Shown here: positions 29,895-47,100 of the stretch, piece by piece | Position numbering within the stretch: position 1 is the first letter of the stretch | How the letters are laid out: every line of letters begins with the position of its first letter | Source of the DNA: an uncultured Bacteroidia bacterium | GTDB taxonomy: Bacteria > Bacteroidota > Bacteroidia > Bacteroidales > ML635J-15 | Length of the DNA stretch: 47,243 nt | Direction: 5' to 3' | Assembly (NCBI GenBank): GCA_902762455.1 | Contig: CACWOG010000001.1 | Coordinates: 1-47,243 of the forward strand | Made by a program: the position numbers and the translations under genes | Notes under the pieces: generated by a model | What the model was told of the DNA's origin: nothing | Database searches by the model: none | The model's input: only the letters and a program-made list of their open reading frames with translations

Positions 29895-31073
29895 ATGCAT
29901 AGAAGCATCGCATTCCTAATCGTAATCGCATTGTTGTCATACAGTTGCAAATCAAATACACAACAAAAAGAAACAAATGCAGAGGCCATTGCAGAAGACA
30001 CAATCACATCTTCTCCACGCGAAGCAAAACTAACCTTTGTTGGCGATTTCCTTTTCGAAGCCCCGTTTTTCACGGCTGTCGATAATGGCTACGACAGAAA
30101 TTCCTATTTTACGCTTGTAAAGAAATACTTCGAAGACGATGACCTCTCCGTAGGCAACATGGAAGTCGTAATCGGCAACGACCGCATGAAGGTCAGCGGC
30201 GACAACTACAACTTCTGCGCACCGCACTACATAGGCGAACTGGTGGCATCACTCGATATGCAGGTGCTGTCAACAGCCAACAACCACACATTCGACCGTG
30301 GCATAGAAGGCATAAACTCCACTCTCGACTTCTTCGACAGCACCAACATTGTAACGGTAGGTACATACCGTAGCCAGCAAGACCGCGAAACGCCTAGAGT
30401 CGTTGAGAAAAACGGCATAAAGTTCGGATTTTTGGCATACACATTAAGCACAAACCAAATTGTTCCTCAGCAATACCGAGACCTCGTCGGGCTATACAGA
30501 AATCCAGAAACCCGCAAAGTCACCGATGAGTACAAAAATCTGATTGCCAACGAGATGTCGGCACTTAGACCGCAGGTTGATGTGCTTATCGTGATGATGC
30601 ACTGGGGAACGGAATTTACCTTTGAGCCAAACAGCGAGCAGAAGGAAATGGCAAAATTCCTCAACGAACATGGAGCCGACATCGTTTATGGTAGCCATTC
30701 ACATTCGGTACAACCAGTCGAAATCATTGGTAGCGACCACAAGACGCTAGTTTATTATTCGCTTGGCAACTTCGCATCGCAGGACGACGACATTGCCCGC
30801 ACGCCCAAAGGTCAGGAAACCTTCGACAATGCATACCAAGTTGGGCTTCTGTCACAATTCAAGGTTACGCTTGACAATGGCAAGGTGGATTTTTCCGACA
30901 TTACAAACCATCTAATTGTCAACCATCTGAACTACGACATGAAGAAGTTTACCCTCGTGCCGTTAGAGCAGTACGACGAGTTCTACGAGAAAACCCATTA
31001 TCGCTACAACCTTGGTTTCAACAGAGAGTTTATCAATGGTCTGTACGATGTAGTAAATAAGGAGATAAAGTAA
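29895..31073 (+). CDS. CapA/PgsA-like (PGA_cap) lipoprotein
   Basis: 392 residues from the ATG at 29895, giving a lipoprotein signal (IALLSYSCKS, Cys 17). The domain is the metallophosphatase-like PGA_cap fold found in capsule poly-gamma-glutamate proteins and in other uncharacterised enzymes: LTFVGDFLFE, STANNHTFDRGIEGI, VLIVMMHWGTEF, DIVYGSHSHSVQPVE and YYSLGNFASQ carry the expected metal-site residues. No other pgs/cap genes are nearby, so poly-glutamate synthesis is not supported; a hydrolase of an envelope component is equally possible. Confidence 0.85.
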   Translation: MHRSIAFLIVIALLSYSCKSNTQQKETNAEAIAEDTITSSPREAKLTFVGDFLFEAPFFTAVDNGYDRNSYFTLVKKYFEDDDLSVGNMEVVIGNDRMKVSGDNYNFCAPHYIGELVASLDMQVLSTANNHTFDRGIEGINSTLDFFDSTNIVTVGTYRSQQDRETPRVVEKNGIKFGFLAYTLSTNQIVPQQYRDLVGLYRNPETRKVTDEYKNLIANEMSALRPQVDVLIVMMHWGTEFTFEPNSEQKEMAKFLNEHGADIVYGSHSHSVQPVEIIGSDHKTLVYYSLGNFASQDDDIARTPKGQETFDNAYQVGLLSQFKVTLDNGKVDFSDITNHLIVNHLNYDMKKFTLVPLEQYDEFYEKTHYRYNLGFNREFINGLYDVVNKEIK

Positions 31074-32749: not shown

Positions 32750-32780
32750 AAAAAGGTCGTCCTTGCAACGACCTTTTTTT
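32750..32780. terminator. Bidirectional terminator between kamD and the LHH nuclease gene
   Basis: AAAAAGGTCGT (32750-32760) pairs with ACGACCTTTTT (from 32768). It has a T-run on the plus strand and a matching A-run that serves as a T-run on the minus strand, so it can end both convergent transcripts. Confidence 0.88.
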
Positions 32781-33267
32781 ATTTCATCCGCGAATAGCAG
32801 TCCTTGAAATCCTTGAACCGTGCCATCCAGTGGCGTTCGCGTTCGCGTGTGAACTCGTCGCGCTCGATGGTGGAGTAGTCGTCGAACTGATGCAGAATCT
32901 GGAAATTGCCGTCGTCGTGATGCTGTGCGGCAGTGAGTTCGGCAAGCGGTGAATCGGGCTGCTGTCCGATGTGATGTAGTTCGTACGGGTCGCCATTCTC
33001 GTCGTGAGGTGGGTAGCCTTCGCCCATAAGGTCGGCATTGCACCAGTCCCAGTATTCGGGATGCTTGCGTCCGTACCAGTTGCGGCAGTTGTAGGCCTCG
33101 CCAACGATTGCAGGGTTAAGCAGGGCTGCCTTGCCGTTGACGCGACCTTCCTTGAGCCCTGCCTTGATATACACATTTGCTTCGTCCATGTCGCGGATGT
33201 AGTCAACTATTGCCGATGACCAGCCGGTCTCTATCTTTATTTGAATTTTCTGAAAAAGCGATAACAT
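32779..33267 (-). CDS. Stand-alone LHH-type HNH/EndoVII nuclease domain
   Basis: 162 residues, no signal peptide or membrane segment. The C-terminal half carries ELHHIGQQPDSPLAELTAA, then HHDDGNFQILH, the signature of the LHH subgroup of HNH/endonuclease VII toxins seen at the C-termini of polymorphic secreted toxins. The preceding ETGWSSAIVDYIRDMDEANVY and the LNPAIVG stretch are the usual beginning of that toxin module. The delivery domains that normally precede it are missing. The predicted activity is DNA cleavage. No immunity-like gene follows, because kamD is convergent directly downstream. It may be a detached toxin cassette or a domesticated nuclease. Confidence 0.75.
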   Translation of the reverse strand: MLSLFQKIQIKIETGWSSAIVDYIRDMDEANVYIKAGLKEGRVNGKAALLNPAIVGEAYNCRNWYGRKHPEYWDWCNADLMGEGYPPHDENGDPYELHHIGQQPDSPLAELTAAQHHDDGNFQILHQFDDYSTIERDEFTRERERHWMARFKDFKDCYSRMK

Positions 33268-33436: not shown

Positions 33437-33745
33437 TTATGCAAACAAATTTGCAATTCCGACCACCACAAGCGCAATAATTGCGATAATTAAAATTCCA
33501 AGCACAATCAGAAACCATTTGATACCCTTGACTATCCTTGCAAGGTGCTCGTTGGATTCTTTGAGGTACGACTGGATAAGATTTAAGCCGCCCGTTACTG
33601 TAATCAGTATATCGTCAACCCATCCTGCAACAGGAATGACATCGGGCAAAATATCAACAGGCGATATGGCATACAATACAGCGATTACGCCCCAAATCCA
33701 CGCACCAACGTGCGATACTTCTCTTTTTTCTAAATCTTCTGACAT
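33437..33745 (-). CDS. DUF1232 (YkvA-like) small membrane protein, copy A
   Basis: 102 residues from the ATG at 33745. The DUF1232 signature is IAVLYAISPVDILPDVIPVAGWVDD, in which D and P residues form a conserved hairpin between a first hydrophobic segment (residues 13-27) and a second. The C-terminal helix (WFLIVLGILIIAIIALVVVG) is a membrane anchor. Function unknown in the family. It begins 2 nt after the zinc-ribbon gene and closely resembles copy B at 38714. A longer frame back to 33853 overlaps the zinc-ribbon gene and is rejected. Confidence 0.85.
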   Translation of the reverse strand: MSEDLEKREVSHVGAWIWGVIAVLYAISPVDILPDVIPVAGWVDDILITVTGGLNLIQSYLKESNEHLARIVKGIKWFLIVLGILIIAIIALVVVGIANLFA

Positions 33746-33747
33746 AT

Positions 33748-33954
33748 CTATTTCCTTTCTTCCATTTGTTTCCAAATATCTTCGTAAGTTGACTTGCTTA
33801 GGAACGACATTAATCCCCAAGGCATAGTCCTTATGCTCTGGCAATGCGGGCAAGGTTGTGGAACCGAAAGCACTGTGGCGTTCAGCTCAATATCGTCTGC
33901 GCGAAATTTTTCGCCGCATTCTGTACATTTGAATAATCTTTTTCCTCTAATCAT
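33748..33954 (-). CDS. Small zinc-ribbon protein
   Basis: 68 residues from the ATG at 33954 (MIRGKRLFKCTECGEKF). Two CxxC knuckles, CTEC (10-13) and CPHC (near 36-39), would hold one zinc ion. The C-terminus is a short charged helix. Such ribbons act as nucleic-acid- or protein-binding modules. It is translationally close to DUF1232 copy A. The ATG at 34032 gives a longer N-terminus with no added motif. Confidence 0.7.
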   Translation of the reverse strand: MIRGKRLFKCTECGEKFRADDIELNATVLSVPQPCPHCQSIRTMPWGLMSFLSKSTYEDIWKQMEERK

Positions 33955-39160: not shown

Positions 39161-40387
39161 TTATTTTGCCCCCTCTCTAACTGCTCTACTTACAGCCTCA
39201 ATGCCACCATTGTGAGCCATACCTTTGTGGTAAACCTCAGGAACCAGAATAATAGTTTTGCAGTCTTCACATTCATGGAGGACTCTTTTTATGTTTTTAG
39301 GGTTATTGCACCTATTCAAAACTTCTTGCTTTGAGCAATTCCATTTTTTCATTAATCTTTCAACAGCTGCGGCATCGCCTTTAAACGCCTTAATTTCATC
39401 AACGGTCTTATTTTGGCTTTGGGCTAGCCTTTTGTATGCTTCTTCGTGCAACTTTTCCCTATTAACTTTTCCTCCTTTTAGCATTTCGTCGCGATTCAGA
39501 TACTTGTCAATGCCTTCGTCAATCTGGCATTTCAACGGTTTTCCTGTTTTAGTTCCAGGGTCTTTCACATTTCCAAAATCAGCACGGCCATTCTTATATG
39601 GGACACTTATATTATCTGTTTCCAGATCGTCAGCCCATTCCTTAATTGTCTTTTCTTCTCCTTGAATATTCAATTTCTGATTAGGATTTCTAACATATTT
39701 TGAATTTCCTTTTTGTCCAGTCCAGTTGCCATTTTTTCCATTGTTGGGAGATCTATGCTTTACGCCCTTGCTGGGACTATTTCCGTTGGCACCATTGGCC
39801 TTGTTGAAATAGATATGCTTCTTGATGTCTTTCAACTCATCTTTGTCAGCTTTCTTCGAGCCATTTCCTATAGTGTGGGAGTATACGGGTAATGGCTTGT
39901 CCGATTTTACTTTGTCAGCAGCCTTCTTTATTGCATCCTTAGTCTTGACGTATGTCGGATTAAGACAAGTGTGCTGTGATAGTTTTTGAGTGCTGGCTTT
40001 TAATGTCTTCTTTTCGAGAACATTTTCCACGGTTGCCCCTGTCGATTTGACAAGTATGCGTTCGCTTCCTTCCTTGATTGTGTTTACCCCAACCTTTGAG
40101 AACACTTTTTTCGCTTCAAGCGTCCCTATGTTTCTCGCATAATTCTTCACTTCAGATTTTGGTAAGTTCGAAATGTATTTTTTGGGAACAGAATGTACCA
40201 TTTCGTTCCTTGCGAAAACACTTAACGAATTGGCTACAGTTTTCGTTGTACCTTTCGCACCAACTTTTACTGCTGTTTTTGCAGTTTTGCCAACGAGGTT
40301 TGCCACCTGTGAATATGCAGATGTACAACTTGCCAGAATGCTTGCGCCCAATATTATTGAGCAAATAATCATCTTAATAGTTCTCAT
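39161..40387 (-). CDS. Lipoprotein with a C-terminal WHH-like HNH nuclease domain
   Basis: 408 residues. The lipoprotein signal ends at ILASC (Cys 21), so export and membrane anchoring are expected. The middle is basic and Lys/Asn/Gly-rich, with a GNWTGQKGNSKYVRNPN segment and a VPYKNGRADFGNV stretch typical of the entry to HNH toxin modules. The C-terminus has RVLHECEDCKTIILVP, then HKGMAHNGGI, close to the WHH subgroup (W-H-H...LVP...H...HTGG); the first W-H is changed to L-H-E, so activity is uncertain. The start overlaps the stop of the upstream lipoprotein by 14 nt. No dedicated immunity gene is recognisable. Confidence 0.65.
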   Translation of the reverse strand: MRTIKMIICSIILGASILASCTSAYSQVANLVGKTAKTAVKVGAKGTTKTVANSLSVFARNEMVHSVPKKYISNLPKSEVKNYARNIGTLEAKKVFSKVGVNTIKEGSERILVKSTGATVENVLEKKTLKASTQKLSQHTCLNPTYVKTKDAIKKAADKVKSDKPLPVYSHTIGNGSKKADKDELKDIKKHIYFNKANGANGNSPSKGVKHRSPNNGKNGNWTGQKGNSKYVRNPNQKLNIQGEEKTIKEWADDLETDNISVPYKNGRADFGNVKDPGTKTGKPLKCQIDEGIDKYLNRDEMLKGGKVNREKLHEEAYKRLAQSQNKTVDEIKAFKGDAAAVERLMKKWNCSKQEVLNRCNNPKNIKRVLHECEDCKTIILVPEVYHKGMAHNGGIEAVSRAVREGAK

Positions 40388-42046: not shown

Positions 42047-42175
42047 TTATTTATTCTGGTCCGACGATTTCACTCTGGCCCTATATACTTCCGCATTTTT
42101 CCTCATTTGTTCGCGCACTGGGTCATTAATGATTATTAAAATGCCTATTAACTTTATTATTTCTTTCAAACTCAT
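42047..42175 (-). CDS. Tiny membrane-associated peptide, array gene 9 (type D)
   Basis: 42 residues: a short hydrophobic N-terminal segment (IIKLIGILIII), then a charged helix (NDPVREQMRKNAEVYRARVK). It shares the MSL start and DPVR with the preceding array gene. Too short for automatic gene calls. Last array gene, 65 nt before the duplicated lipoprotein start. Confidence 0.55.
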   Translation of the reverse strand: MSLKEIIKLIGILIIINDPVREQMRKNAEVYRARVKSSDQNK

Positions 42176-42207
42176 AATTCTATTGTTTTTTTGTGTTAAT
42201 ACTCCGT

Positions 42208-42354
42208 TTACTTTCTTTCAGTTTTTTTGTCCTGCTCGTTGTCATCCGAGAACAGAGCTACCATTCTTTCCCTGAAATCCCTTACAGGGTTGCATGGGTC
42301 ACGCAAAACTGTTGTCTGCCACTTGATTACCTCAATGTATCTTCTCAAACTCAT
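42208..42354 (-). CDS. Tiny array peptide, array gene 8 (type D)
   Basis: 48 residues starting MSLRRYIEVIKW, with RDPCNPVRDFRERM in the middle and an acidic/basic tail. Paralogous to the next peptide (MSL..., DPVR/NPVR, following Arg-rich helix) but less hydrophobic. It is preceded by a 16-codon frame (42403-42353, MKENENNNVKLKKLVI) whose TGA overlaps its ATG as ATGA, a possible leader peptide. Confidence 0.5.
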   Translation of the reverse strand: MSLRRYIEVIKWQTTVLRDPCNPVRDFRERMVALFSDDNEQDKKTERK

Positions 42355-42413
42355 ATTACCAATTTTTTTAGTTTAACATTGTTGTTTTCGTTCTCTTTCA
42401 TAATTCACTTTTT

Positions 42414-42484
42414 GCGGCCGGCCGTTGTTGGCGACCGGACCAGGGTTAAACCTGTGGAGGCCTTTCACCTCCGTTATTCGTCAC
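42414..42484 (-). repeat. GC-rich 71-nt element, copy 2
   Basis: It differs from copy 1 (43197-43267) at two bases only. On the minus strand it can form GGAGG/CCTCC, CAGG/CCTG and a strong GG-CCGG / CCGG-CC hairpin. It stands 18 nt after the type B peptide gene, as does copy 1 (22 nt). Confidence 0.8.
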
Positions 42485-42502
42485 TCTGCGTAGCTGATCG
42501 GG

Positions 42503-42664
42503 CTAATCGTCCTGTTGTCCGGATCTCTGCTGTTCCTTCAGTTGCTGCTGAGTCTTCCAACTTTCGTGCTCATGAACCATATCAAGTACTCCAGCAACGA
42601 GTGTACCAACAGCGGCTATTCCAGCCAGGGCAATGCCTAATCGCTCAAAGCCTTTGTCTGTCAT
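42503..42664 (-). CDS. Tiny membrane peptide, array gene 6 (type B)
   Basis: 53 residues: a short polar N-terminus (MTDKGFERLG), one transmembrane segment (IALAGIAAVGTLVAGVLDMV), then a Gln-, Glu- and Lys-rich tail (ESWKTQQQLKEQQRSGQQDD). It has the same layout as array gene 2. GGAGG lies 5 nt before the ATG (GGAGGTAGTATG), a strong Shine-Dalgarno that is unusual for the phylum. Confidence 0.65.
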   Translation of the reverse strand: MTDKGFERLGIALAGIAAVGTLVAGVLDMVHEHESWKTQQQLKEQQRSGQQDD

Positions 42665-42747
42665 ACTACCTCCTTTTTTTGGGGTTAGTACTCGCCAGCC
42701 ACCTTCTCACCAATTTCTTGGTTTTACCCGCAGGCTGGCTTTACGGG
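42665..42747 (-). promoter_or_regulatory. Structured leader element R, copy 5
   Basis: GCCAGCC pairs with GGCTGGC, enclosing ACCAA-GAAA-TTGGT, then AAAAAAAGGAGG before the start codon. Nearly identical to copy 4. Confidence 0.75.
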
Positions 42748-42764
42748 TTAGCTTTCCGGCTCCA

Positions 42765-42857
42765 CTATTGGCGGTTGCTCTTGATTGCCTTGTAGGCCTC
42801 GATTGTGATTATGACCACATTGGCACCCAAAAGCAAGCCTAACAGCAGTAAGACCAT
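42765..42857 (-). CDS. Tiny membrane peptide, array gene 5 (type C)
   Basis: 30 residues: one hydrophobic helix from the first residue (MVLLLLGLLLGANVVIITI), then EAYKAIKSNRQ. GGAGG 4 nt before the ATG, preceded by leader copy 4. It is not an obvious paralogue of types A or B, but has the same plan of a helix with a short charged tail. Confidence 0.6.
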   Translation of the reverse strand: MVLLLLGLLLGANVVIITIEAYKAIKSNRQ

Positions 42858-42941
42858 ATTGCCTCCTTTTTTTAGGGTTAGTACTCGCCAGCCACCTTCA
42901 CACCAATTTCTTGGTTTTGCCCGCAGGCTGGCTTTACGGAC
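42858..42941 (-). promoter_or_regulatory. Structured leader element R, copy 4
   Basis: GTCCGTAAA, then GCCAGCC paired with GGCTGGC, apical ACCAA-GAAA-TTGGT, and GGAGG before the start of array gene 5. Confidence 0.75.
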
Positions 42942-42957
42942 ACGCGTCCCGTTTCGC

Positions 42958-43041
42958 CTACTTGCGTACGGTGTCGCACACCTCGATGATGGTGGTAGCA
43001 ACCGTAACGACAATAGTCAGCACCTTTATAAACGTACCCAT
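42958..43041 (-). CDS. Tiny membrane peptide, array gene 4 (type A)
   Basis: 27 residues: MGTFIKVLTIVVTVATTII, then EVCDTVRK. It aligns without gaps with array gene 1 (M-x-x-F-(I/L)-K-(V/I)-L, then A-T-x-I-I). GGAGG 5 nt before the ATG. Confidence 0.65.
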   Translation of the reverse strand: MGTFIKVLTIVVTVATTIIEVCDTVRK

Positions 43042-43178
43042 ATCGTCCTCCGCTTTTGGTTAAACAATCCCTCATCACCACCACACCAAGTTCCTTGGTT
43101 TTGCCCGCAGACGAGGTTTGCGGACTTTGTTTCCGATGTTTTGTCTGATTTATTTTTCATAATAGGTTTGTTCCTCAT
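43026..43178 (-). CDS. Doubtful 50-codon frame through leader copy 3 (array frame 3)
   Basis: The frame from the ATG at 43178 has a polar start (MRNKPIMKNKSDKTSETKSA), then reads through leader element copy 3 and overlaps array gene 4. Only its first 18 or so codons lie outside the RNA element. The rest follows a frame that stops in other copies, so the downstream part is probably not selected as protein. A short leader peptide is possible. Confidence 0.2.
   Translation of the reverse strand: MRNKPIMKNKSDKTSETKSANLVCGQNQGTWCGGDEGLFNQKRRTIWVRL
43042..43125 (-). promoter_or_regulatory. Structured leader element R, copy 3
   Basis: CCTCGTC pairs with GATGAGG (one G-U) and encloses ACCAAG-GAA-CTTGGT. 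GCGGAGG lies before the start of array gene 4. The outer stem differs in sequence from copies 4 and 5 but keeps the pairing. Confidence 0.72.
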
Positions 43179-43196
43179 ATTAATTTTTCATTTTTT

Positions 43197-43267
43197 GTGG
43201 CCGGCCGTTGTTGGCGACCGGACCAGGGTTAAACCTGTGGAGGCCTTCCACCTCCGTTATTCGTCAC
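43197..43267 (-). repeat. GC-rich 71-nt element, copy 1
   Basis: Same element as at 42414-42484, 69 of 71 bases identical, so either recently duplicated or strongly constrained. It follows array gene 2 (type B) and precedes frame 3. Potential hairpins as in copy 2. No T-run follows, so it is not an ordinary terminator. Confidence 0.8.
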
Positions 43268-43289
43268 TAAGCTCTTGCAGTTTCCAACA

Positions 43290-43433
43290 CTACTTCTGCT
43301 TTTCCTGATCGTCGCGTCTCTGCTTTGCTTCGCGCACTTCGTTGACTGTGGTCAACACAGTGCCTGCGATAGTTCCTGCAGCAACGAGGATAGAAAGAGC
43401 TGTGTTGAAATTGTTCCAACCGTTTCCCTTCAT
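43290..43433 (-). CDS. Tiny membrane peptide, array gene 2 (type B)
   Basis: 47 residues: polar start (MKGNGWNNFN), transmembrane segment (TALSILVAAGTIAGTVLTTV), then a strongly charged tail (NEVREAKQRRDDQEKQK). Paralogous in layout and in the AG-x-VL segment to array gene 6. The ribosome-binding site is weak here (AAAGAAAGTTGATAGT). Confidence 0.65.
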   Translation of the reverse strand: MKGNGWNNFNTALSILVAAGTIAGTVLTTVNEVREAKQRRDDQEKQK

Positions 43434-43521
43434 ACTATCAACTTTCTTTTTTGCGTTTAATACTCGCCAACCACCTTCACACCAATTTTCTTGGTTCTGC
43501 CCACAGGTTGACTTTGCGGAC
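43434..43521 (-). promoter_or_regulatory. Structured leader element R, copy 1
   Basis: GTCAACC pairs with GGTTGGC (one G-U) and encloses ACCAA-GAAAA-TTGGT. Relative to copy 4 a G-C pair has become A-U, which is a compensatory change. Confidence 0.72.
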
Positions 43522-43540
43522 ACGAGTCTCTGCTCAGCGA

Positions 43541-43624
43541 CTAGCTGCAAACGATGTTCATTATCTTTATGATAGCGGTAGCAATCGTCGCAATGCAAGC
43601 CAGTATCTTCAGAAATGCTGTCAT
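43541..43624 (-). CDS. Tiny membrane peptide, array gene 1 (type A)
   Basis: 27 residues: MTAFLKILACIATIATAII, then KIMNIVCS. One hydrophobic helix with two Lys. First gene of the array. GAGG lies 4 nt before the ATG at 43624. Homologous to array gene 4. Confidence 0.6.
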   Translation of the reverse strand: MTAFLKILACIATIATAIIKIMNIVCS

Positions 43625-43712
43625 AATGCCTCATCTCTTTTTGTTTAACACTCTCTCGCCACCCTCATACCAAAACTTCATTTTGGCTTGCCCGCAGACG
43701 AGATTTACGGAC
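43625..43712 (-). promoter_or_regulatory. Structured leader element R, copy 0 (first)
   Basis: TCTCGTC pairs with GGCGAGA (one G-U) and encloses CCAAAA-TGAAG-TTTTGG, the most diverged apical stem, still fully paired. TGCGGGCAAG between the two stems is shared with the other copies. Confidence 0.7.
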
Positions 43713-43820
43713 AAAAGAAACGGAAGCGCATCAGGTTTTATTTTTATGAGACTCCGCCTCTTCAAACTTTTGTAAATTTAGTTGTGATGATTAAATCATC
43801 ATAATAAAAGTTTTGAAACG

Positions 43821-43851
43821 CAAAAGTAGTGTTTTTTTTATTACCACCAAA
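43821..43851 (-). promoter_or_regulatory. Perfect Bacteroidota promoter driving the peptide array
   Basis: Minus strand: TTTG (43851-43848), 19-nt spacer, TACTTTTG (43828-43821). Start near 43814. The early transcript holds a 17-nt perfect palindrome, TGATGATT-T-AATCATCA (43801-43785 on the minus strand). The first leader element begins about 100 nt downstream. Confidence 0.8.
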
Positions 43852-44192: not shown

Positions 44193-47100
44193 CTAAAACC
44201 TTACGCCAAGCAGAGCCAACCATTCAGGTTGCACCTTTGTGTTAGGGTTGTTCTCAATTTCAATACCCTTGCTAGCAAGATACTCAACAATTGCTGCAGA
44301 TGATACATTGAAGAAAGCTGCTACGGCACTTAATCTTTTGGCCTTACCTATTGCGTTATCTTCAATTTGTTTTGCTTCTTCGTCATCTTTCTGAACGCGA
44401 TCATTCTCCTTTGTTCCATTAACATTTTCTGTATACTTGATGGCGGTTTCGTTCAAGACCTTCGAGTCCTTGAACTTTTCGTCGAGCATAGCCAACCATT
44501 CGGGACGTACCTTGGCATTGGGGCTGTTCTCGATTTCGATACCCCTGCTTGCGAGATATTCCACAATGGTTGATGTCGCCACATTATAAATGGCAACTAA
44601 GGCGCTTAATCTTTTGGGAGAAATATTATCCAAAGGCGGATTTTTTAATCCCCAAGAGTACCAATAGATTGGAGCAAATAAATATTGTCTTCCTCTTTTA
44701 GTAATTTTTTCTGCCATAATGCCATTGGCAAAGATGAGACGTTTTAAATCATCTGGAGTTTTAACTACTTCACTATCATCTATGAGTTTAAAAGTTATAT
44801 TAATCAAGTTCTCAAATTGCTCTCCCGTCAATGATTTAAAGCGGAATTGTTCTCCTATAGAAGTTCTGATAACTTCTTTAAACTTAAGAAGATCCTTGCT
44901 AAAAGCATCTTGTGTTAAATCTGCGAAGTATTTTTCCGTTGTTTCATCTCGGACTGCTTGTGAAGCATATATTTCAGGGGGAATGATTTCTTTAACATAT
45001 TTTTTTGTTATTGCCAAAGCTTTGTCAACTGCATTTGAGTCCATTGTGTTTATAAATGGCCTTAAACTAATAGCGGTATTATCAGCATTGGCAAGTTCCT
45101 TTTGAAAATATTCCCATGGAGTACCCAAAGAAGATGCCCCTCTAACATCTTTACCAAAAAATACCCTAATGATAGGGGTCATTTCCGCAACGGTTAATGA
45201 TTTAAATTGATTTTTAGGGAATTTATCAAAACTTTTCTTTGTGTTGTTGATATAACTGCTATCTATTCCAACCTTTTGAGCTATTGCCCAATACGCATCA
45301 CTTGCTTCTTTGTTTGAAAATATAAGTTTAAAAAAGAAACCAAACACTTCTCCTATTGACCATTCAATATGAATAATGCTATTCTCCAATCTGGCCATAT
45401 TTGTACCTTCTATTTGTCTAAATAGGTCTGTTCGCACAAAAATTTTAGGTCTAATGTTTGAAAAAGATTCGCAATTATTTCGCCAATAGTTAATTAAAGG
45501 TGAAACAGCCTTGGTCCATCTTAATGGATTAATACAAGTGTCAAGTCTGTCATATAATATAAATAATTTTTTGTTTTTTTCTTCTAATAAGTCATTAATA
45601 AGTTTAATGTCTTTTTCTATTGTGATTAAAGTCTTTACTCCATTATTTATTAGTTCGTCTATTCTTACTAATGCTTCTTTTGCATATCCAGCACCTGTAA
45701 TAGGCTTAACATAATCATGCAGTTCGCTGTTGTCTCTAATGGTCTTAAATTCTGTGTTAAGAAGAAGGACATTCCAAGTATAAATCTGCCAAAAGGCATT
45801 AAAGTAAAATTCAGGTTCTTCAATATTAGAGTACCTAATATTCTCAAATACTAGAGATGATTCATTTGTGGGTAAGATGTTTATGAAAATAGGGTCAGAT
45901 ACATTGTTTCCATTAGATCCTGCCCATTTCTGAATATTTCTTGCGATATTTTTGTCCGCTAATGCCTTATATAGGTATGTTTTTCCCGTTCCCTTATAGC
46001 CTTGAATTAGAAATTTCTTTGGGTCAAATAGACCTTTCATACATTCACGATAAAAGAATTGTTCGTCATTTATCTGTGTGTCTTCTGCAAAGTTAGAAAC
46101 ATTTTTTAAGGTATTCTTTAGATGTTTTAATATAGTATTACGAAGTTTAATAGCTGGGGTATTTTTAGAATAAGTAGAATAAGGTTGCGTGGTTTTGAAG
46201 AAATAATTATTTAATTTTTCAAACAATGCGTTGAAATCTTGGATTTTATTGCCTTGTATTGATTCTACAAATTCATAATCCGATTGTTCATCCCCTGTTC
46301 CGATTTTTTCGAGAGAAGCATTCCTATGTAAATACAAAAAGGGGAGAAGAGAATCTTTAGATTCATCGCCAATATAATTGATGAATCCACGAACTTGACT
46401 TTCGTGATCTTCTACCCATTTTTGTTGAGCATTTTCTGGCAATATTGAAAAAACCAGTTGTAATTTAAAGGAATTTGATTTTTTGTAATATTCTTTTAAC
46501 AAATTAATTAGTCCAGGCTGGGTTTGACGGCTAAATCCGAAGAATCCTACTACGTATGATGATAAGTGCAGAGCTGCAGTTCCAAAGATATCATTAAATC
46601 CAGTTCTGGAATCAATAAGAATAATATCTGGCTTAATAGTCTCGCGTATTTTTTTAAACAAAAGATTGAAACTATCTATGACCGATTGAACGCTTGATAG
46701 ATTAATTTTTGCAAGTCCTTCAAGGTAGTCGTTTCTGTCTGTGCTACTTTCTAAGTCTGAATAACCCTCATTAAGGTTGCCTGCAGGAACTAACCAAATA
46801 TTATCTAGATTATTATATGCAAAGTTGTTTTTGTTATCATTACCTACATTTATTATGTAATCACTAATATCCAACTCTTCTGGATTGGATAAGAACTGAG
46901 CATCACTAATGAATTCTACTAGTCCATTTTTTTTGCCACTATTAAGTTCTGTGTGTTCCGATAAGTCAAAAAAGTTTAGATAGCCTGGTGCTTCCAAATC
47001 ACAGTCAATAATAACAACAGTTTTGTTTTTGGGTGCATCTTTTTGGGCAGCAAGACTTATTGCATACGCGACCATCGTTGTCGTTCTTCCCATACCTCCT

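Follow-up and report, generated by a model that had tools for sequence, protein, structure and literature searches.

An array of tiny membrane-peptide genes with repeated pseudoknot leaders in an uncultured lineage of Bacteroidales

The locus and its short genes

The window, i.e. the whole stretch of 47,243 nucleotides analysed here (contig CACWOG010000001.1 of an uncultured Bacteroidia bacterium from the rumen), carries on its minus strand seven short open reading frames (ORFs) of 27, 47, 27, 30, 53, 48 and 42 codons, all present with the lengths and in the order given in an earlier note on this DNA. They are arranged as A1-B1-E, A2-C-B2-E, D1-D2, where A to D denote peptide types and E a repeated three-hairpin element. 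Beyond what the earlier note described, every A, B or C gene is preceded by a covarying pseudoknot leader (L, 66-70 nt), and unusually strong Shine-Dalgarno sequences (SDs) occur in the array. A second array was found in another species of the genus (G009: JAFZRE010000019.1, Bacteroidales bacterium RGIG8023, from buffalo rumen). The features of the window, in the direction in which the array is read, are as follows.

43821-43851, minus strand: Bacteroidetes-type promoter TTTG-N19-TACTTTTG, perfect match
43786-43800, minus strand: perfect palindrome GATGATT-T-AATCATC (GATGATTtAATCATC), directly past the promoter
43643-43712, minus strand: L1, leader of A1 (covariance model and pair counts)
43541-43624, minus strand: A1, membrane peptide of 27 aa
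43455-43521, minus strand: L2, leader of B1 (covariance model and pair counts)
43290-43433, minus strand: B1, 47 aa, single transmembrane (TM) helix and charged tail
43199-43267, minus strand: E1, three-hairpin element (repeat and fold)
43140-43170, plus strand: perfect promoter-like site, antisense to E1/B1 (sequence match)
43059-43125, minus strand: L4, leader of A2 (covariance model and pair counts)
42958-43041, minus strand: A2, membrane peptide of 27 aa, strong SD
42876-42941, minus strand: L5, leader of C (covariance model and pair counts)
42765-42857, minus strand: C, membrane peptide of 30 aa, strong SD
42683-42748, minus strand: L6, leader of B2 (covariance model and pair counts)
42503-42664, minus strand: B2, 53 aa, single TM helix and charged tail, strong SD
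42416-42484, minus strand: E2, second three-hairpin copy (repeat and fold)
42208-42354, minus strand: D1, 48 aa, amphipathic/polar, no L leader and no SD
42047-42175, minus strand: D2, 42 aa, N-terminus hydrophobic over a short segment, without L leader; no counterpart found in G009

Five of the peptides had been described as hydrophobic, one as having a shorter hydrophobic segment and one as polar, and this agrees with their best 17-residue Kyte-Doolittle means, which are 2.3 for A1, 1.9 for B1, 2.1 for A2, 2.8 for C and 2.4 for B2 and, outside these types, 1.7 for D2 and 0.15 for D1. Five non-overlapping TM-like short ORFs were observed, whereas dinucleotide shuffling of the stretch (500 replicates) gave a mean of 0.028 and never more than 1. 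A1, B1, A2, C and B2 thereby share a trait of the toxins of type I toxin-antitoxin (TA) systems, namely small size and hydrophobicity with a single predicted TM helix. Searches of the peptides against Pfam, PHROGs and NCBIfam yielded no match above cut-off and none to known type I toxins, a weak hit to YonT (12.8 bits against a cut-off of 45) not being evidence. Type I toxins are diverse, so that membership does not strictly depend on such a match; nor did any family hit favour a holin, a regulator of the envelope or a secreted signal. Several short, hydrophobic and mostly cationic peptides encoded in one operon might also represent a multi-peptide leaderless bacteriocin, exported without a leader as antibacterials or signals; this is very improbable, since B2 has a net charge of -3, the tails of B1 and B2 are long and charged, and neither an exporter nor an immunity gene lies beside the array in both species.

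The perfect shared promoter that had been claimed for the array is confirmed as a Bacteroidetes-type match (43851-43821 in reading direction), one of five perfect matches on the array strand across the whole window, and at the corresponding place G009 carries CTTG-N19-TACTTTTG, with one mismatch. The palindrome past the promoter, a candidate operator or 5' hairpin, was not seen in G009. On the opposite strand, the site at 43140-43170 would direct transcription into E1 and B1 and is a weak candidate for the promoter of an antitoxin RNA; it has decayed in G009 (TTGGTTTG, with loss of the A of TAnnTTTG).

The E element comprises about 70 nt within an 89-nt repeat that is 93% identical, and is located exactly after B1 and B2. 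Hairpin 3 of E1 is preserved in G009, where G has been replaced by A at one position and U-A stands in place of U-G. Nowhere in the locus is the match to the anti-SD stronger than at GGAGGUGA/G in the E elements (-14 to -15 kcal/mol), a motif that is closed in a hairpin with CCUCC and has no start codon nearby.

A covarying pseudoknot before each A, B and C gene

L folds into an H-type pseudoknot, in which helix a (7 bp) is interlocked with helix b (7 bp), two A separate the first strands of these helices and a hairpin c of ~5 bp lies inside loop 3. The pseudoknot is real and well supported. Helix b occurs among the copies as GCCAGCC/GGCUGGC, GUCAACC/GGUUGGC, UCUCGUC/GGCGAGA and CCUCGUC/GAUGAGG, which is clear covariation, and paired cells amount to 97.9% in the five window copies and 96.7% in 11 copies, the latter including 17 cells with both sides changed, whereas slid registers pair at 33-51%; the copies are related, so that these counts are not independent events. 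The covariation value is 0.363 versus 0.03-0.15 in slid versions, and was equalled in 0 of 500 shuffles. The MAFFT alignment places hairpin c of L1 one column off, and its pairing is underestimated as a result. Read on the opposite strand, the U-G pairs would become A-C mismatches; it is therefore the mRNA strand that is under selection. Between the two species L has diverged by 3.9%, as against 12.2% at third codon positions and 10% in linkers.

The placement of L is equally regular. It begins 19, 16 and 16 nt after the stops of A1, A2 and C, respectively, and 16-19 nt after the stop in seven cases across the two species, the gaps being retained in G009, while in the window it ends 18, 21, 17, 18 and 18 nt before the ATG of A1, B1, A2, C and B2. 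Both this spacing and the SDs are non-random. In its own genome no further L copy was detected, a weak hit of the L model (R1) at 30750-30818 (14.3 bits, E 0.58) being judged chance, and the Rfam 15 covariance models gave no match to L or E at gathering score and only chance-level matches at E 5. In topology L resembles the preQ1-II riboswitch, likewise an H-type pseudoknot whose loop 3 contains a hairpin, but L has no Rfam match even at E 5, the SD does not coincide with the 3' strand of helix b, and no queuosine genes were seen.

Type III TA systems such as ToxIN carry a repeated pseudoknotted RNA element in their transcript, as does the array. L is repeated, pseudoknotted and better conserved than the ORFs, as might be expected if the RNA were the product, cut from the transcript to act in trans like type III pseudoknot antitoxins, with the peptides being secondary. 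Such a role is quite improbable given that, unlike in ToxIN, the L copies are not tandem, contain an embedded hairpin and are tied to start codons at a fixed 17-21 nt before the ATG; moreover, the peptides are under purifying selection (see below), the genome has no other L copy and no ToxN-like endoribonuclease was recognised nearby, the ToxN/CptN/TenpN families being absent among the scanned neighbours.

Other readings of L were rejected. A frame beginning SANLVCGQ... runs through L1, L2 and L4, but a leader peptide fails as a general explanation, since L5 and L6 are one base shorter; it is further countered by a stop within L6 of the window and by the ATG before L1 of G009 (ATGAAAAAC), which is ATA here. 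A frameshift or readthrough stimulator is contradicted by the lack of a nearby slippery site, the spacer of 16-19 nt and read-on peptides that end at differing places. By eye, neither integron boxes, as in an attC-like cassette site, nor a P3 equivalent, as in HDV-like ribozymes, was recognised, and no Rfam match points to other ribozymes. L contains no anti-SD, and hence simple sequestration of the SD by L is unsupported.

Initiation sites of the array

In Bacteroidia, bS21, bS18 and bS6 sequester the anti-SD, so that the ribosomes normally ignore SDs (PMC9976891), and bS21 genes are present in 28 of the 31 genomes of the family. Predicted anti-SD pairing of A1, A2, C and B2 reaches -9.5 to -13.6 kcal/mol (C -12.2, B2 -13.6), compared to a mean of -2.5 and a minimum of -10.6 kcal/mol across 81 genes from these loci (p=0.0003), the generally known anti-SD tail being used, since no 16S tail could be located in the genomes. 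The SDs of A2, C and B2 are retained in both species. That of B1 is weak in the window (-5.8 kcal/mol) where G009 has AGGAG (-12.9), so that the SD is not strictly kept, and A1 of G009 is weak as well (-3.7). The L-bearing cistrons thus have unusual initiation sites, tending towards strong SDs, which are rare in this SD-blind class. In Flavobacteriales, rpsU uses an extended SD for autoregulation (PMC9976891); the array resembles it in having strong SDs in a class whose ribosomes hide the anti-SD, but encodes small membrane peptides rather than bS21, and in this genus rpsU lacks an SD. For the start sites of the L cistrons, a fold that ignores the pseudoknot predicts an accessibility of 0.33-0.57, which reaches only into the lower portion of the control values (0.58, sd 0.15).

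The five A, B and C genes all end in UAG (stops at 43541, 43290, 42958, 42765 and 42503), compared to 4 of 26 window genes, and in G009 one of the corresponding stops is UAA. These stops and the strong SDs could be leftovers of transfer from an SD-using donor, devoid of regulatory meaning, an explanation that competes with ours only on initiation and is compatible with it for the peptides and L. The GC content of the array (0.47 versus 0.42 for the window), the excess of UAG and the lack in window B1 of the SD found in G009 all fit such an origin, which we consider unlikely but worth keeping in mind, as the SDs of A2, C and B2 have been retained in both species and no relative was found in other phyla, phage or plasmid sets.

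A second array, purifying selection and genomic surroundings

Over the 31 genomes of the family the L covariance model matches only its own genome and G009, and an L pattern run over all species genomes, exact and therefore liable to miss diverged forms, returned only RGIG8023. At wider range, in 393 genomes from the order and 395 from the phylum, the L model recovered only its own genome. Phages and plasmids yielded no match by distant BLAST, and neither did viral contigs searched with L, E and B patterns. The layout is unmatched in any database searched, and searches of the literature on smalltalk proteins, Bacteroidetes type I toxins and LHH/DUF1232 found no account of it. The comparative results accordingly rest on two arrays in two genomes.

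The G009 array (locus L014, 6717-8404) reads A1-B1-E-A2-A2'-C-B2-E-D1, i.e. the order of the window plus one extra A2, so that the search for the same order of short frames proposed in the earlier note succeeded, with six of the seven frames intact. Homology is sharply bounded, extending from about L1 to a point after D1; the adjacent upstream genes, D2 and both lipoprotein genes downstream are not common to the two species. A2' arose by a 185-bp tandem duplication of ORF A2 and the following L, from which it follows that the bank grows by ORF+L units. Duplication within the array has occurred, and the earlier proposal that an A-B-E cassette was duplicated and gained one member is supported; the tandem copy in G009 displays the duplication process directly.

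The earlier note had named broken frames beside intact RNA elements as telling against the genes; the opposite was seen, A1, B1, A2, C, B2 and D1 all being open in G009. Differences between the species number 13/8/29 at codon positions 1/2/3 (p=0.0007), and the comparison of synonymous and non-synonymous changes suggested at the outset gave, for the six concatenated orthologous frames, dN 0.050, dS 0.164 and dN/dS 0.30. Among single ORFs purifying selection is clearest in B1 (2/1/11, dN 0.067, dS 0.26) and D1 (dN 0.054, dS 0.31), while C shows three synonymous and zero non-synonymous differences; A1 and A2 are too short to be judged singly, but compared as paralogues their second positions are best kept (14/6/13). 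As a set, the ORFs are under purifying selection, and their coding nature is well supported. Together with the intact G009 frames and the TM-like hydrophobicity, this upholds the view of the array as paralogous membrane-peptide genes.

The proposed link to two lipoprotein genes downstream did not hold, as the first lipoprotein has no homologue in G009 and the pair is not conserved. The AlphaFold prediction of the downstream lipoprotein has a mean pLDDT of 37. After the G009 array the place of the lipoproteins is taken by a 118-aa glycine-zipper-like membrane protein (locus L014, 8661-9017). At 39161-40387 the window encodes a protein with a lipoprotein signal (LASC) and a C-terminal WHH-type nuclease domain (E 0.00037, below the Pfam cut-off), possibly a surface-borne nuclease effector. 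A gene at 44193-47093 encodes a 966-aa ParA-like/AAA-like NTPase fusion that matches the defence-candidate models PDC-M28B/C and has, by eye, two repeated IF2-N-like motifs near its C-terminus.

Genes flanking the array match defence-candidate models. The array adjoins the ParA-like/AAA fusion in the window and STAND-like ATPases in G009, and the conserved charged tails of B1 and B2 could contact partners, so that the peptides might be, rather than toxins, small membrane subunits or regulators that serve NTPases or envelope proteins encoded nearby on the island, with L only balancing stoichiometry. This is rather unlikely, however, because the directly upstream and downstream genes differ wholly between the two species, no adjoining gene being common to both, and the near-identical copies A2 and A2' speak against fixed subunits. 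As to a prophage holin, no phage-like neighbours were recognised and no phage match was obtained.

LHH nuclease genes occur in 7 of the 31 family genomes, each adjoining a DUF1232 gene. The pair lies at 32779-33267 and 33437-33748 in the window, and also at loci L036-L040 and L014, at several different chromosomal sites of the genus. Upstream of it the cargo varies, comprising dynamin-like GTPase pairs (G021/G022, named by eye), STAND/AAA ATPases or, in two genomes, the peptide array. The region looks like a mobile or hot-spot island, and the array seems to be exchangeable cargo, which would agree with a role in conflict.

A proposed bank of peptides under pseudoknot control

The type I toxin loci Ldr and Ibs/Sib of E. 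coli, like the array, place several paralogous hydrophobic peptides near one another, but each of their units stands alone with a promoter and an antisense RNA of its own, where the array has one promoter and intercistronic pseudoknots. The best precedents, both established by experiment, are tisB and timP, which encode small membrane proteins that are toxic. In tisB mRNA, the binding of 30S and S1 as well as toxicity depend on a pseudoknot in the leader (PMC7708055); initiation on timP mRNA likewise requires a pseudoknot, which the antitoxin RNA disrupts (PMC11228461). As in tisB/istR1 and timP/TimR, there is a tiny single-helix inner-membrane peptide and a structured leader upstream of the start, an H-type pseudoknot in tisB; the structured mRNA leader, a further type I TA trait, is present here as the covarying L pseudoknot. 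On the other hand, tisB and timP have one cistron per mRNA where the array has five or six, each with L, and they belong to another phylum, have a known antisense RNA and carry pseudoknots that are not homologous to L. For an antitoxin RNA the array offers only the candidate promoter at 43140-43170, perfect in the window but not in G009, and it is therefore not assignable to type I TA. The toxin-like build of the peptides, one of the options named in the earlier note, is supported, and by analogy the array plausibly works like tisB or timP, once per cistron.

We favour a reading in which membrane peptides built like type I toxins form a bank that is transcribed together, each cistron having a pseudoknot leader of its own for translation control; as a whole this reading has, in our estimation, about an even chance of being correct. 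One mRNA would carry the bank of tiny inner-membrane peptides of types A, B and C, and L would most likely govern initiation of its own cistron, by recruiting or holding 30S/S1 beside an SD to which the usual ribosomes of Bacteroidia do not respond, and by shielding the cistron from ribosomes of the one upstream; that L acts in cis on translation is probable. The peptides, once made, would most likely lodge in the inner membrane and perturb it in the manner of type I toxins, and that they damage membranes we hold at a little short of an even chance. The pseudoknots may keep the peptides silent or release them together, and the bank would enlarge through tandem duplication of ORF+L units. A far bolder idea, to which we give only a very slight chance, is that L plus a strong SD makes the cistrons readable only by ribosomes with an exposed anti-SD, e.g. 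those lacking bS21, so that stress or a bS21-carrying phage would free the whole toxin bank at once; if true, this would be an abortive system that senses the state of the ribosomes, and the first of its kind to be described.

In conclusion, L represents a new covarying pseudoknot family ahead of five tiny membrane-peptide genes in one array, which offers a multi-copy natural test of pseudoknot control over membrane-peptide translation outside enterobacteria. As a rare strong-SD gene set in an SD-blind class, the array also makes the idea of specialised ribosomes directly testable.
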